Source: a virus
Reading direction: 5' to 3' (one strand)
Virus record (IMG/VR): IMGVR_UViG_3300049617_000185
Coordinates: 1-24,538 of that record
DNA: 24,538 nucleotides
Both the position numbers and the translations under genes were made by a program. Positions 6,504-23,931 of the stretch are shown piece after piece (positions within the stretch are counted from its first letter, which is position 1; each line of letters starts with the position of its first letter). Under the pieces are notes generated by a model, which was given only the letters and a program-made list of their open reading frames with translations, searched no databases and was not told the origin of the DNA.

Positions 6504-6536
6504 AAAAAAGACTCAAGCTAATCCTTGAGTCTTTTT
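6504..6536 (+). terminator. Intrinsic terminator after the SSB gene
   Basis: An 8-bp perfect stem, GACTCAAG at 6510-6517 and CTTGAGTC at 6524-6531, encloses a 6-base loop. It is preceded by six A and followed by five T, so the A and T runs can extend the stem, and it could work from either strand. It separates the SSB transcript from the resolvase operon. Confidence 0.88.
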
Positions 6537-9290: not shown

Positions 9291-9734
9291 ATGACCAAAA
9301 GACAAAATCGTTCAGATCGTTACCAATGGGTTTTACTTGAGACTGTATGCAGCAATGAAATGATGGAAACCTTTTGTAACGAAGATAGTATCTATAATAG
9401 ATTGACTGGGGGTTTCGCCTATGATGAAACCTTAATTGATTTAGAAGATCAATTAAAGAAAGAGTTTTGGAGAGTAGTAGATACTCTTTTAACCCCAAGA
9501 CAAAGAGAAGTAATTAGACTATATGCAGATGGCTATACTCAAATGGAGATAGCTAAAATGCTAAATGTGAACCAAAGTTCAATAACAAAAAGTTTGAACG
9601 GAAACGTCGATTATAAGAATGGGAAAAAGGTTTATGGCGGAGCCCGCAAGAAGATCAAGAAAATCATAGAGATGGATGATAAAATCAAAGATATCCTGAA
9701 AAAAATGCAGGAGTGTAGAGACGAAAAATGGTAA
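9291..9734 (+). CDS. Sigma-70 region 4-like transcription factor
   Basis: A protein of 147 residues with AGGA 8 bases before ATG 9291. Residues 68-104, LTPRQREVIRLYADGYTQME and the following IAKMLNVNQSSITKSL, form the helix-turn-helix of sigma region 4 or the related LuxR-type family. The N-terminal 60 residues are acidic and aromatic and do not look like sigma region 2, so it is unlikely to melt promoters alone. The C-terminus is a basic helix (YGGARKKIKKIIEMDDKIKD). It might pair with host sigma or RNA polymerase to switch on phage promoters, or act as a plain DNA-binding regulator. It ends the replication block, just before an HNH gene with a separate promoter. Confidence 0.82.
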   Translation: MTKRQNRSDRYQWVLLETVCSNEMMETFCNEDSIYNRLTGGFAYDETLIDLEDQLKKEFWRVVDTLLTPRQREVIRLYADGYTQMEIAKMLNVNQSSITKSLNGNVDYKNGKKVYGGARKKIKKIIEMDDKIKDILKKMQECRDEKW

Positions 9735-9739
9735 GAAAA

Positions 9740-9768
9740 TTGACAAAGCGCTAATAAGTCGTTATATT
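9740..9768 (+). promoter_or_regulatory. Near-consensus sigma-70 promoter for the first HNH gene
   Basis: TTGACA at 9740-9745 is a perfect -35. After exactly 17 bases comes TATATT at 9763-9768, five of six matches to the -10 consensus. The expected transcription start, about 7 bases further, falls at 9775-9776, on the ATG of the HNH gene. No Shine-Dalgarno sequence precedes that ATG, so the mRNA would be leaderless. It is the best sigma-70 match I found in the window. Confidence 0.8.
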
Positions 9769-9775
9769 GCTATGT

Positions 9776-10666
9776 ATGAAGCAATGTACCAAATGCCTAA
9801 TTTCTAAAGATGAAAACGAGTTTTCTAAACATTTATCGTATGCGGACGGTTTATCATATTGGTGCCGCGAATGTTGGAAAAGTTATCGAAAAGAATATAG
9901 AGAATCAAATTTAAGTGAAGCTCGCCAATATACTAATGATTGGCGAGCTTCACGCGTTCAGTGGTTTCAAGATCTGAAATCAAACATACCTTGTGTCGAT
10001 TGTGGTCAAATATATGAACCATATTGTATGGATTATGATCATATTTTAAGTCGAGGCAATAAGATAAAAAGTGTTAGTCGTATGGTAATGAATAATACGC
10101 CAAAAGAAGTAATCATCGCGGAAATAGAAAAGTGTGATCTTATATGTCTATTATGTCACAATAAAAGAACATACGATAGATTTAATAATGAATTAGGAAA
10201 CGATAGAAAATATCCGCCACATATGCAACGAAATATTGGTATCATCAATGCATTCAAAGTACATCCTTGCACTATTTGTGGGCAACAGTATGAACATTAT
10301 AATATGCAAATTGATCATATTAATCCGACCACTAAATTGTATGATGTGTGTCAACTGAAAAGTCGAAAAGTAGAAATACTGTTAACCGAGCTGGCTAAGT
10401 GCCAAGTGTTGTGTGCCCTATGTCATCGCAGAAAATCGGTCCTCGAACAACAAGATGATAAGTATTCTGTTCCCCGACCTCAACCACCCAAGAGACAAGA
10501 ATTATTTTATGATCCAATAGCTAATACTAAAGAGTGTGGGCTATGTCATAAAATCAAAGATGGTGCAGAGTTTCGCCCAAATAAGAAAACTAAATCTGGA
10601 TTAGATACATATTGTAAGGAGTGCTTTAATGAGTATAGACGAGAAAGACGAAGAACATCTAATTAA
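9776..10666 (+). CDS. Tandem-domain HNH homing-type endonuclease
   Basis: A protein of 296 residues from ATG 9776, chosen because it starts right at the KQCTKC zinc motif; TTG 9767 lies inside the -10 box. The architecture is symmetric. A zinc knuckle (C4, C7, C30, C33) is followed by HNH domain 1 (C73, C76, D88-H89, C124, C127-H128) and HNH domain 2 (C165, C168, D180-H181, C213, C216-H217). A second zinc knuckle (C254, C257, C280, C283) comes last, with the same 22-residue spacing as the first. Both HNH cores keep the DH and CxxCH residues, so both may cut. Known relatives are phage homing endonucleases that nick or cut a site in related genomes. It has its own promoter, no ribosome site, a 15-bp internal hairpin, and a 38-base overlap with the next gene. 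Confidence 0.9.
   Translation: MKQCTKCLISKDENEFSKHLSYADGLSYWCRECWKSYRKEYRESNLSEARQYTNDWRASRVQWFQDLKSNIPCVDCGQIYEPYCMDYDHILSRGNKIKSVSRMVMNNTPKEVIIAEIEKCDLICLLCHNKRTYDRFNNELGNDRKYPPHMQRNIGIINAFKVHPCTICGQQYEHYNMQIDHINPTTKLYDVCQLKSRKVEILLTELAKCQVLCALCHRRKSVLEQQDDKYSVPRPQPPKRQELFYDPIANTKECGLCHKIKDGAEFRPNKKTKSGLDTYCKECFNEYRRERRRTSN
9915..9953 (+). repeat. Perfect 15-bp hairpin inside the first HNH gene
   Basis: GTGAAGCTCGCCAAT at 9915-9929 is exactly reversed and complemented by ATTGGCGAGCTTCAC at 9939-9953, with a 9-base loop. It encodes residues about 47-60. The stem is GC-richer than the gene around it and begins about 140 bases into the predicted leaderless mRNA. Confidence 0.92.
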
Positions 10667-14948: not shown

Positions 14949-14972
14949 ATGAACAAACCTACTTACAAAAAA
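14949..14972 (+). repeat. Copy 1 of the start-region repeat (HNH gene)
   Basis: The first 24 coding bases, encoding MNKPTYKK, match 15626-15649 at 20 of 24 positions. All four differences (AAC/AAT, AAA/AAG, ACT/ACA, TAC/TAT) are at third codon positions and leave the residues unchanged. Confidence 0.85.
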
Positions 14973-15629
14973 TGTATAAAATGTAATGAAGAAAATGAAA
15001 TAATAGAGAATTTTTATTTTAGAAAAGTTCAGAATGAATATTTTAACGTTTGTAAGTTATGTGTTAAAAAAGATACACAAAAATATAGAAAAAATAATAA
15101 AGAAAAAGTTTTAGAATATAATAAAAATTACTATGAAGATAATAAAAGCATAATTTTATTACAGAAGAAAAAATATCGCAATGAAAATGGAACAAAAATA
15201 ATCATAAAAAATAACAGGTATAGAAAAAAAAGAAGACAGAATGATCCCTCTTTTAGATTAAGAGAAGATGTCTCTAGAATGATTAATCATAGTATAAAAA
15301 AATATGGTTCTTCCAAAAATGGCATTTCTTGTCTTAAATATTTTAATTATTCAATTGAAGAGTTAAAACAACATTTGGAAATTCAATTTGAGCCATGGAT
15401 GAGCTGGAATAATTGGGGAGTTTATAACTCTAACACATGGGATAATAACGATTCAACAACTTGGACATGGCAGATTGATCATATAATTCCTCAATCTGAT
15501 TTACCATATACATCTATGCAAGACGAAAATTTCAAAAAGTGTTGGTCTTTAGAAAATTTGAGACCATTAAGTGCCAAACAAAATAATTTTGATGGTGTAA
15601 ATAATATAAGACATAAAGAGGTTTTATGA
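14949..15629 (+). CDS. HNH homing-type endonuclease, very AT-rich
   Basis: A protein of 226 residues. The N-terminal zinc knuckle is C9, C12, C35, C38, the same spacing as in the first HNH gene. A Lys/Tyr/Asn-rich linker (about 40-100) follows. The HNH core is in the C-terminal third: WQIDHIIPQSDLPY (D177, H178) and NLRPLSAKQN (203-212), giving His-Asn-Asn type catalytic residues without zinc cysteines in the core. Bases 15001-15180 have only about 17% G+C by hand count, far below the neighbours, which marks it as foreign. No Shine-Dalgarno is present; TATAAA at 14939-14944 is a possible -10. Its first eight residues equal those of the downstream gene, which it overlaps by 4 bases. Confidence 0.9.
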   Translation: MNKPTYKKCIKCNEENEIIENFYFRKVQNEYFNVCKLCVKKDTQKYRKNNKEKVLEYNKNYYEDNKSIILLQKKKYRNENGTKIIIKNNRYRKKRRQNDPSFRLREDVSRMINHSIKKYGSSKNGISCLKYFNYSIEELKQHLEIQFEPWMSWNNWGVYNSNTWDNNDSTTWTWQIDHIIPQSDLPYTSMQDENFKKCWSLENLRPLSAKQNNFDGVNNIRHKEVL

Positions 15630-15649
15630 ATAAGCCTACATATAAAAAA
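15626..15649 (+). repeat. Copy 2 of the start-region repeat (invaded gene)
   Basis: The partner of 14949-14972. It encodes the same MNKPTYKK with four synonymous differences. The two copies bracket the HNH coding sequence. Confidence 0.85.
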
Positions 15650-20794: not shown

Positions 20795-21445
20795 ATGTCA
20801 AATAAAAATTCACGCCATCAATCGGTTATTTCTAGACAATCTGATGAATCCATCGGAGATGATCACTGGTTTAAACAATTTGAAAAAAGTTTAATAAAAG
20901 GTGCAGTTCAACCGAAGCCACCCGTGTCTTTATTTGATCAAATTAATTCAATTATGAATGGTGGTCAAGCTAAATATACATCTGTTGAAGCCGCGGTCAA
21001 AGATATGCAGGAACGAAGTGGAGTCACTGCATATAATAAAAAAGTTTCAAACACCGAAAACGTTAAATCAAAAAGAGCTTCAGGTGATGAGAATAATACT
21101 CTCGAAAAAAAAGTTAATGTAGAACCTATTGTTATTAAGAAGTGCCCAGCCATCAGAAAAACTTTAGAAAACTATATTAATACTACTAAAGGTCACGCAG
21201 TAGTTCCTGCTATCATTGAAAAGATTCACTCTATTCATCAGGGAGATGTATCCAGTGCCGATGATTGGGAAGATGACAATTTAATTCGTTTGGTTAGTGA
21301 AATGAATGAGAAAGCTAAAGAAAGCAATCCAAATAATTATCGTAATCAAGATCATAACTTAGGAAATCGCAACACAGGTGCAGATTCAGAGATTGATCCA
21401 TCCAATACTGACGCATTTCACGCATTAACTCCCGTAAAACTTTAA
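20795..21445 (+). CDS. Hypothetical protein upstream of the terminase region
   Basis: A protein of 216 residues starting 2 bases after the previous stop. It begins with a Ser/Arg-rich polar stretch, then WFKQFEKSLIKGAV and SLFDQINSIMNGGQAKYTSV, which look like two short amphipathic helices. A Lys/Asn-rich linker separates these from a C-terminal helical part (about 118-178), and the end is Asn/Asp-rich. No motif of a known enzyme is visible. Before the minus-strand HNH gene arrived it would have been directly upstream of the terminase gene, a place often occupied by packaging or head genes. It is convergent with the HNH gene, with 11 bases between the two stops and no terminator. Confidence 0.72.
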   Translation: MSNKNSRHQSVISRQSDESIGDDHWFKQFEKSLIKGAVQPKPPVSLFDQINSIMNGGQAKYTSVEAAVKDMQERSGVTAYNKKVSNTENVKSKRASGDENNTLEKKVNVEPIVIKKCPAIRKTLENYINTTKGHAVVPAIIEKIHSIHQGDVSSADDWEDDNLIRLVSEMNEKAKESNPNNYRNQDHNLGNRNTGADSEIDPSNTDAFHALTPVKL

Positions 21446-21456
21446 GGCGTTTGCAC

Positions 21457-21942
21457 TTACCCAGGCAATTTTCTAGCTAATTTACCGGTTTTAATTGTGA
21501 TTTCTGGCTTATTGTGAGGGCAGTATCCAAAGAAATTTTTTGCACAACTGCAATTATAACACAGTAGCTGATATTCTTCTTTCGGAAAATTATTTTTAAT
21601 CAACCAACGATATAGTTTGATACCAGTGATCTGTTTTACAGCTTCATCACTATTGATGTGATCTACTGTTAGAAATTCATATTTGTTTTCATCACAACAA
21701 GCGCATTTCCATCCATATGCTTCAATTATTTTCATCTTAACAGCGAGATCATATCCTCTTTGTTGTTCTCTGATTATCTCTTTTTTATTCTGGTATCTTA
21801 ATTTATCTCTCAATTTACGACAAAGCTTACAAATGTAACAGTTTTGTGCGATATCGCAAGTTCTAGTATTGTCTGTCGTAAGTGGTAAAAGACAGTTTAT
21901 ACAAATTTTATCATCTAATTTGTTAATTTTATTGCTTGACAT
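21457..21942 (-). CDS. HNH homing-type endonuclease, only minus-strand gene
   Basis: A protein of 161 residues read from 21942 to 21457. An N-terminal knuckle has C14, C17, C38 and C41. The HNH core has C80 and C83 (WKCACC), D94-H95 in LTVDHINSDE, then C128 and C131 in LLCYNCSCAKNFF, where N130 and N136 are candidates for the last catalytic positions. Cys141/His143 near the end may add a metal ligand. The basic region RKLRDKLRYQNKKEI probably binds DNA. Its ATG lies inside one arm of a perfect 36-base palindrome whose other arm holds the terminase start; no Shine-Dalgarno is present. Opposite orientation and position at the terminase border fit a mobile passenger gene. Confidence 0.9.
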   Translation of the reverse strand: MSSNKINKLDDKICINCLLPLTTDNTRTCDIAQNCYICKLCRKLRDKLRYQNKKEIIREQQRGYDLAVKMKIIEAYGWKCACCDENKYEFLTVDHINSDEAVKQITGIKLYRWLIKNNFPKEEYQLLCYNCSCAKNFFGYCPHNKPEITIKTGKLARKLPG

Positions 21943-21971
21943 GGGAATATTCTAGAATATTCCCATGTCAA
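21936..21971. repeat. Perfect 36-base palindrome holding two divergent start codons
   Basis: The left arm TTGACATGGGAATATTCT (21936-21953) is exactly the reverse complement of the right arm (21954-21971). The minus-strand HNH start (21942-21940) and the terminase start (21965-21967) sit at the same place in each arm. The centre contains GAATATTC twice, separated by TA, and each outer end reads TTGACA outside-in, a perfect -35 hexamer facing inward. No good -10 at normal spacing is seen on either strand. Neither gene has a Shine-Dalgarno sequence. Confidence 0.95.
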
Positions 21972-23851
21972 CTGATCCAAATAAAGAATTATTCTTAAAG
22001 TTAAGACAACAGCTATTAATGATAGATCCCGTGACATTTTGCGAGACCTATCTAACACTTGATGGTAAACCATTTAGCCTACACGGCAATGGATACAAGC
22101 CCTTCAGTGAGATATATCGATACATCGGTATTAAAGCCTTAGAACCTGATGCTAAACCAGTAATTATGGTTAAAGGTCGTCAGGTTGGCGCCACTACTAT
22201 GGCGAGCGCATTAGAAATGTATTTTATGGGCTCCGGCATTTTTGGTAACTATTTTAATCCAGCCATTAGAATTATTCATGCCTTCCCACAATTAGAATTA
22301 GCTGCCGCCTATTCTAAAACTAAATTGAATCAAATGATTCTTTCATCTGTACCAGCTCCTGGTCAAGACGAAAAGAAAGTATTGAAGCCAAAGACTTACA
22401 TGCAAGTTTTATTAGATCAATCTACCGCTACTAATGATTCTTTACATTTTAAACAATTTATTGGTGGTAACCATTTATGGGTAGAATCAACCGGTTTAGA
22501 TGCTGATAGAATAATGGGTCGTACGGCTGATATGATCTTTTTTGATGAAGTTCAGAAGACAACCGATCAAGCTATCGGAAATGCTTTAAAAATTCTGACC
22601 ACCGCTAAATATGGACGTCCATCTAAAGGTGTACAAATTTACTTCGGAACTCCAAGACGTAAAGGCTCTGATTTTTATAAAATGTGGCAGACTTCTTCTC
22701 AACAGTATTATTATTTAGGTTGTGAAAATTGTAAAGAGCATTTTCCTTTATATACTCCTGGTTCTGATGACTGGAAGGAAATATGGATACATGGTCACAT
22801 TGTTAAATGTACTAAGTGTGGTCATGAGCAAGATAAACGTCCAGCCGCTGAACGTGGTAAATGGGTAGCCTTAAAAAATCCAGATGATGAAGATTGTAAA
22901 ATGATTGGGTTTCATATCAATCAGCTTTACATGCCCATGTTTACCAGAGAGGATATTGAAAACGAGTTACCTGGAAAGCATCCAATTAACACTGAACGTG
23001 TTTTTCAAAACGAAGTTTTAGGAGAGTTTTTTCAAGGAGATTCTAGCCCTATTACACCAGAAGAGATTAAAGAACATTGTGCGGATATTGGTAGAAAATT
23101 TAGTGCTCGTATTATTCCACAAAAGAATACTATTAATCCACAGATTATCACTTTAGGAATAGATTACGGTGCTAGGGCAGATTTAGAACAATTAGCTAAT
23201 CCAGATAAAGTCAAAGCAGTTGGACAATCTTACAGTACTGCTGTTGTTTTAGTAGCAAAAGGTCCTAATTTATTATCTATTGAATTTGCCACTAAATTCA
23301 AACGTAATGATATGGAAAGTAAAAAGGGAATCATTGACCAAATTATGAGACAATATAGTGTTCAATTAGCTATTGGAGATATTGGTTATTCAAATGATTT
23401 TTCTCATATGTTGCATCAAGCTTATGGAGATAAATATCTAGTTTCTCGTGCTCATAATAGAATAAATGGTCATGTTAAATTTACTGCCGACGCTTTTCCA
23501 AAAGAATTAATCTTTGAAAGAGATTATTATATTGGAGAACTATATGAACAAATGAAGAAAGGAATGATCAAATTTCCATATGGTGATTATGAAAAAATAG
23601 CATGGTTAGTTGAGCATTGTGCGAGCATGGAAATTAAACCTTCCATTTCTAGGACAGGAGATCCAAGTATTCATTATGTGAAAGGAGGTACCCCAAACGA
23701 TGGTTTTATGGCATTATTGAATGCTTACTTAGCTTACAAGTTCATCATTACCAGGGGTTTTACTCAAAATAATCCACTTCTTCAGCAACAAAGTTTTAAA
23801 CAACTTAATAAGCCATTAGCAGTTACTGGGTATGTCCAACGTAAGTTTTAA
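21965..23851 (+). CDS. terL: Terminase large subunit (GpA-like, with zinc insertion)
   Basis: A protein of 628 residues; the ATP-driven motor and nuclease that packs phage DNA. The ATPase shows VKGRQVGATT (Walker A type, 69-78), IFFDE with D194-E195 (Walker B), and the coupling motif YFGTPRRKGSDF. A zinc insertion has C253, C256, C282 and C285. The nuclease domain has LGIDYG with D400, GDIGYSNDFS with D472 and TPNDGF with D579, matching the three acidic residues of the RNase H-like fold. Length and zinc insertion are like lambda GpA-type large subunits. The start lies in the palindrome shared with the HNH gene. An internal ATG at MIDPVTF would lose 18 residues. The portal gene follows after 80 bases. 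Confidence 0.95.
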   Translation: MSTDPNKELFLKLRQQLLMIDPVTFCETYLTLDGKPFSLHGNGYKPFSEIYRYIGIKALEPDAKPVIMVKGRQVGATTMASALEMYFMGSGIFGNYFNPAIRIIHAFPQLELAAAYSKTKLNQMILSSVPAPGQDEKKVLKPKTYMQVLLDQSTATNDSLHFKQFIGGNHLWVESTGLDADRIMGRTADMIFFDEVQKTTDQAIGNALKILTTAKYGRPSKGVQIYFGTPRRKGSDFYKMWQTSSQQYYYLGCENCKEHFPLYTPGSDDWKEIWIHGHIVKCTKCGHEQDKRPAAERGKWVALKNPDDEDCKMIGFHINQLYMPMFTREDIENELPGKHPINTERVFQNEVLGEFFQGDSSPITPEEIKEHCADIGRKFSARIIPQKNTINPQIITLGIDYGARADLEQLANPDKVKAVGQSYSTAVVLVAKGPNLLSIEFATKFKRNDMESKKGIIDQIMRQYSVQLAIGDIGYSNDFSHMLHQAYGDKYLVSRAHNRINGHVKFTADAFPKELIFERDYYIGELYEQMKKGMIKFPYGDYEKIAWLVEHCASMEIKPSISRTGDPSIHYVKGGTPNDGFMALLNAYLAYKFIITRGFTQNNPLLQQQSFKQLNKPLAVTGYVQRKF

Positions 23852-23862: not shown

Positions 23863-23931
23863 CAATATCTTATTGATATATTATTAGTTGAGTATAGTAG
23901 GGTGAGAGTGTGGTTGAAACAATGAGGCTTT

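Follow-up and report, generated by a model that had tools for sequence, protein, structure and literature searches.

The terL locus and its palindrome

We analysed a 24,538-base viral record from IMG/VR (IMGVR_UViG_3300049617_000185; 36% G+C), referred to here at its full length as the window. It carries phage genes for a UvsX-like recombinase, a RuvC-like resolvase, a DNA primase, a terminase and a portal protein. The locus of interest contains the following features:

20795-21445, plus strand: gene X, immediately upstream of the terminase gene in relatives without an HNH gene
21450-21462, plus strand: TTTGCACTTACCC, the left flank of the insertion, which supplies the HNH stop codon and is common to loci with a family A HNH gene, a family B HNH gene or no HNH gene
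21457-21942, minus strand: HNH/endonuclease VII-like gene of family B, coding for 161 aa with an intact catalytic DH
21936-21971, no strand: perfect 36-bp palindrome with both start codons; predicted RNA hairpin z about -6.2
21944-21950, plus strand: GGAATAT at the box position toward terL, 14 nt from its ATG, a weak match
21957-21963, minus strand: GGAATAT at the box position toward HNH, 14 nt from its ATG, a weak match
21965-23851, plus strand: terminase large subunit gene terL (GpA-like), 628 aa; phrog_675, E 3.7e-59; Pfam GpA_ATPase

The sequence of positions 21936-21971, TTGACATGGGAATATTCTAGAATATTCCCATGTCAA, equals its own reverse complement, which confirms a preliminary description, made from the sequence alone, of 18-bp arms with zero mismatches and no loop. 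The HNH (21940-21942, minus strand) and terL (21965-21967, plus strand) start codons are separated by 22 nt. As that description also stated, each ATG is equally placed in its own arm, both genes begin with ATGTCAA, and neither is preceded by a Shine-Dalgarno-like sequence, in contrast to 20 of the 30 genes called in the window (by a loose definition). The palindrome lies far beyond chance, which is ruled out: no other zero-loop palindrome of the window has arms longer than 8 bp, 60 dinucleotide shuffles (loops 0-6) produced arms of at most 12, and the expectation for an 18-bp zero-loop arm is about 1e-6 per window.

Two conventional readings of this sequence were rejected. The inward-facing TTGACA hexamers that had been pointed out at the arm ends are indeed present, but were over-read: they are merely the complement of ATGTCAA, are not conserved in the palindromes of relatives, and have no usable -10 element at about 17 bp, which argues against a sigma-70 promoter. 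Nor does the palindrome resemble a terminator, as no T-run follows the stem. Elsewhere in the window, a 13-bp stem between runs of A and T precedes the RuvC-like gene (6505-6536) and is likely a bidirectional terminator.

Mirrored start sites recur at the HNH/terL junction of related phages

We searched for relatives by terL and recovered 80, at 70-86% identity and on contigs of up to 447 kb. Where the HNH gene is absent, gene X (ending like SNTDAFxALxPxK) runs straight into terL, at a distance of about -1 to 67 nt in most loci, and the palindrome is absent. This comparison, which the preliminary description had proposed, bears out its view that the palindrome accompanies the HNH insertion. 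Loci with an HNH gene have a distance of about 440-710 nt between gene X and terL, with the HNH gene between them on the opposite strand. Two main HNH families occupy this spot. Family A proteins start with MxSTKK and usually have a spacer of 26 nt before terL; family B is that of the window, its relatives being 51-60% identical to the window HNH protein.

Eight of the nine family B members match phrog_2633, endonuclease VII (best E 8.5e-8), and six match phrog_2255, HNH (1.1e-11). The window protein by itself gives a weak match (E 0.0046), and its best Foldseek matches are HNH nucleases, also weak (E 0.095). Family B thus combines HNH or endonuclease VII-like sequence with a corresponding fold. 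The catalytic DH has been lost from the family B copy of L009. Separately, three family A genes (L037:5402-5953, L014:5393-5953 and L003:5426-5953) have seemingly lost the DH pair and retain the gene and its start region.

All nine family B lineages have the HNH gene head-to-head with terL at the same spot, and seven (the window, L007, L009, L046, L060, L083 and L134) share mirrored starts with the 22-nt ATG spacing. Their half-site can be written as RNATATWNCC-ATG, and its sequence differs among loci. The palindrome is perfect in the window and, apart from a centre of 4 or 2 nt, in L007 and L060; these three sequences are all different, and their perfect symmetry extends into codon 2. L009, L046, L083 and L134 have one or two mismatches each, the stems of L083 and L134 being imperfect, and the remaining members, L042 and L064, show a partial mirror of quite different sequence.

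The motif AATATWNCCATG was nearly confined to junctions of family B HNH genes with terL in twelve related records (15-447 kb), and we rejected a phage-wide start motif on this ground. Scanning 2.9 million viral contigs for the double half-site yielded fifteen stretches; these comprised six known junctions, a new one (L134) and eight without a clear opposed gene pair. A survey of divergent gene pairs in two whole contigs (190 and 365 called genes) found no comparable stem, ruling out a general trait of short divergent spacers. No such palindrome was found among the more distant HNH relatives in IMG/VR and GTDB genomes, those with less than about 45% identity.

The palindrome as the probable end of a mobile cassette

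We placed the HNH families on a terL tree of 67 distinct rows. Family B, in nine of these, requires eight changes on the tree, with a mean of 8.6 for shuffled labels; the HNH gene is absent from 33 of the 67 rows, and in 19 another family takes its place. Paired on the tree are L046 (family B) with L051 (family A), and the window with L002 (no HNH); the window-type arm is missing from the terL start of L002, as is the L046-type arm from that of L051. HNH and terL identities are uncorrelated (rho 0.17, p 0.33). The left flank TTTGCACTTACCC is shared by several family A, family B and HNH-free loci, and provides the HNH stop codon in both the window and L046. The HNH gene is thus intergenic and sporadic, with its site intact in relatives, and a mobile origin of the cassette is well supported by these comparisons.

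Because family B is scattered on the terL tree and HNH-free relatives lack the palindrome, the most suitable reading of the palindrome is that it forms the end, on the side of terL, of a mobile homing-endonuclease cassette, HNH-free terL starts being too variable for base-by-base assignment. The preliminary description had instead supposed that the HNH gene copied the native terL start in inverted form. The half-site is missing from HNH-free terL starts, which leaves this view without support as worded and makes the terL arm look as though it was brought by the cassette or remade with it. Three HNH-free loci (L041, L048 and L065) still have a B-like quasi-palindrome before terL; these are perhaps remnants after HNH loss, or perhaps predate insertion. 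Two further HNH-free loci may carry scars of a lost HNH gene: an 11-bp-arm hairpin over the terL start codon in L045 (near 1657), and a terL leader lying in a direct repeat in L044 (near 532).

A direct form of start copying was found at a second HNH gene of the window. This gene, HNH2 (start 14949), and the gene after it (start 15626) both begin MNKPTYKK, and the two copies (14949-14972 and 15626-15649) are in direct orientation with four synonymous differences in their 24 bases. In HNH-free relatives, the 15626-type gene follows directly on the upstream gene and starts with MNKPTYKK or a close variant, so HNH2 has acquired the native start, leaving the target gene with a second copy. This case shows that starts do get copied in these phages. 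A fragment matching residues ~180-222 of the 15626 gene also lies just upstream of that gene's homologue in three genomes (G003:C1:229563-229676, G017:C1:49356-49484 and G018:C1:199274-199387), a partial tandem duplication that may be connected with insertions at this position.

Arm pairing within loci and a predicted RNA hairpin

We examined whether the arms of a locus belong together by re-dealing right arms among the seven mirrored loci. Mean pairing energy was equally good in 21 of 5000 permutations, and in 0 of 5000 when L042 was included, its odd sequence helping; letter identity over 14 positions gave 73 of 5040, and family A spacers showed a weaker pairing effect (43 of 5000). The loci are few and related, and these values, read as indications and not as strict probabilities, suggest that arms match better inside a locus than across loci. 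G-U pairs favouring the terL strand occurred in two loci, too few to use.

In predicted structures of read-through RNA, the start region is buried in a stable hairpin, with z of -6.2 for the window; L007 and L060 reach -7, and the other family B loci about -3.4 to -4. No HNH-free locus other than L045 had a comparable hairpin.

A promoter-like box upstream of genes and within the arms

The heptamer GATATAT was enriched upstream of genes in two contigs (13 against 1.8 expected, and 14 against 2.1). Across five sequences its density between genes was 8-31 times that within genes, with a peak 8 nt before the ATG; this position suggests near-leaderless mRNAs. It precedes portal, holin and resolvase genes, the window example being the portal gene (23875-23881), and can be regarded as a promoter-like motif, hitherto undescribed, of these phages (L218-L241, L348-L366). 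The T4-type late promoter TATAAATA was considered and found to be hardly present in these genomes. Our literature search found nothing relevant about either divergent homing-gene promoters or GATATAT as a late promoter.

Of 16 family A loci scored, six have GATATAT exactly 8 nt before the HNH start and one more has GTTATAT. For family B, the best-matching box is almost always located 14 nt before the start, which puts it in the opposite arm. Toward HNH, this position holds GATATAT in L009, L046 and L083, and GTTATAT in L134; toward terL, the box is weak in all family B loci. The window and L007 have no recognisable box in either direction, only a poor match.

Two other window genes touch on this motif. 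A third HNH gene, HNH1 (9776-10666), has GTTATAT (9761-9767) exactly 8 nt before its ATG, and so apparently belongs to the near-leaderless class; its coding sequence contains an inverted repeat with 15-bp arms and a 9-nt loop (9915-9953). A small sigma-factor-like gene (9291-9734; phrog_351, E 4.5e-8) has a homologue in L220 that is preceded by GATATAT, and its product could be the protein that reads this box.

A proposed shared start region for HNH and terL

The palindrome plausibly ties the expression of HNH and terL together, and is probably a shared start switch for the two genes. We tentatively favour, at somewhat under an even chance, a compact divergent start region in which a hairpin formed by the cassette-end palindrome controls both starts. 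We lean toward this reading because of the recurrence in nine lineages, the fixed 22-nt spacing, the pairing of arms, the hairpin z values, the confinement of the half-site and the scattered distribution of the cassette. The enrichment of GATATAT between genes, its placement at family A and family B HNH starts, and the precedents of I-TevI, SegB and MobE (PMC2988022, PMC3014915) also speak for it.

The free-standing HNH cassette, presumably homing, lies between gene X and terL in the genome of a large phage, against the direction of the operon. Under this proposal, its terL-facing end would provide two mirror-image start sites 22 nt apart, as seen in seven lineages, and in each arm one strand would serve as its own gene's short leader and start codon, while the other would carry the opposite gene's promoter box. 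In read-through RNA begun farther out, the palindrome would fold up as a hairpin with the start codon buried inside, and RNA begun inside the palindrome, without the 5' arm, would be translatable. Initiation about 7 nt past the box would take place where the second arm begins or just beside it and so yield RNA lacking the hairpin, with a 7-nt leader that we assume can be translated without a Shine-Dalgarno sequence. Neither terL nor the endonuclease would then be expressed before its own short transcript is made, and terL expression would be restored after the cassette had broken the operon. Symmetry could be maintained despite sequence drift by selection for the hairpin, by template-switch homogenisation, or by both. 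Against the proposal stand the poor boxes of the window and L007 in both directions, the weak box toward terL throughout family B, and the imperfect stems of L083 and L134.

A bolder form, which we think rather unlikely, is that a selfish endonuclease holds the essential terminase gene hostage. Both genes would have their promoters, leaders and start codons in one palindrome, whose hairpin would silence both in read-through RNA; selection would keep symmetry and not sequence, and if the HNH gene were simply lost, expression of the terminase would suffer.

Alternative explanations

The main rival to a hairpin-controlled start region is that the symmetry is a functionless by-product of mutation, and both could contribute. 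A quasi-palindrome arises when two similar start signals face each other, and one arm could repeatedly be copied onto the other by template switches in the course of replication, which are documented between inverted-repeat arms (PMC8604942, PMC7202029). The perfect symmetry of three different sequences, reaching into codon 2, fits this well, as do promoter boxes that are weakest where symmetry is greatest, as if eroded by homogenisation. However, the 22-nt spacing is fixed in seven diverged lineages, suggesting constraint, and other short divergent spacers in the two surveyed contigs lack perfect start stems. We regard a purely mutational origin as unlikely, if still a serious contender.

Improbable, in our judgement, is a dyad operator at which the HNH protein or a phage regulator represses both genes. 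The dyad symmetry and fixed spacing, found only at junctions with family B HNH genes, would suit such a site, and I-TevI autorepression offers a precedent (PMC2988022). Yet the half-site varies across loci while symmetry persists, L042 and L064 being quite different, and its absence from every HNH-free terL start leaves no likeness to an obvious homing site.

We give a little less credence still to an inverted duplicate of the native terL start, acquired at insertion as first suggested, and here taken to have no further role. The eight start codons that HNH2 shares with its target gene show that start copying occurs, but HNH-free terL starts lack the half-site, and a one-off event would not remain symmetric among HNH genes that are 43-70% mutually identical.

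HNH proteins that assist terminases exist, and the HNH gene adjoins terL; even so, it is very unlikely to be a packaging partner and not a mobile gene, being neither constant in the terminase operon nor co-directional with it, missing or replaced by another family in the tree rows counted above, and without the DH in L009. Artefacts can yield perfect palindromes, but a chimera of assembly or amplification, which the preliminary description had named as a refutation, is of negligible probability given the same arrangement with intact flanking genes in contigs of different metagenomes and the identical sequences of L007 and L008.

Comparison with known systems

Hairpin control of homing endonucleases in the style of T4 is known; new here would be a symmetric two-gene form that also takes in the essential gene next to it, among uncultivated large phages of a widespread family. 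The terL site offers a natural series (no HNH, family A, family B and possible post-loss loci) suited to studying effects on neighbour expression, and it poses the question of whether start symmetry is selected or is produced by template switching.

In the homing genes T4 I-TevI, T4 segB and Aeh1 mobE, an RNA hairpin covering the start region silences early expression, and a late promoter lies within that hairpin (PMC2988022, PMC3014915). The family B junction is similar in that the endonuclease start lies within a strong predicted hairpin and a candidate promoter position lies within the 5' arm, which short transcripts would therefore lack. Unlike those systems, the hairpin here comes from a near-perfect palindrome in which an essential gene also starts, on the opposite strand, and the start codon itself is buried, with no Shine-Dalgarno sequence. 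I-TevI also represses itself by binding an operator that resembles its own homing site (PMC2988022). The palindrome is likewise a candidate protein-binding site over an endonuclease start, but it is dyad symmetric, unconserved in sequence and without resemblance to HNH-free junctions.

Template-switch correction of quasi-palindromes (PMC8604942, PMC7202029) resembles our case in that the arms of an inverted repeat co-evolve locus by locus; the difference is that the mirrored arms studied here recur at a single defined junction between genes and keep a constant spacing. Finally, segD, in the gene 23/24 region of T4, is a free-standing endonuclease gene antisense to its neighbours, for which the review gives no divergent start region and expects very low transcription (PMC2988022). 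Family B HNH genes likewise run against the direction of a late operon but, unlike segD, appear to have a dedicated divergent start region.
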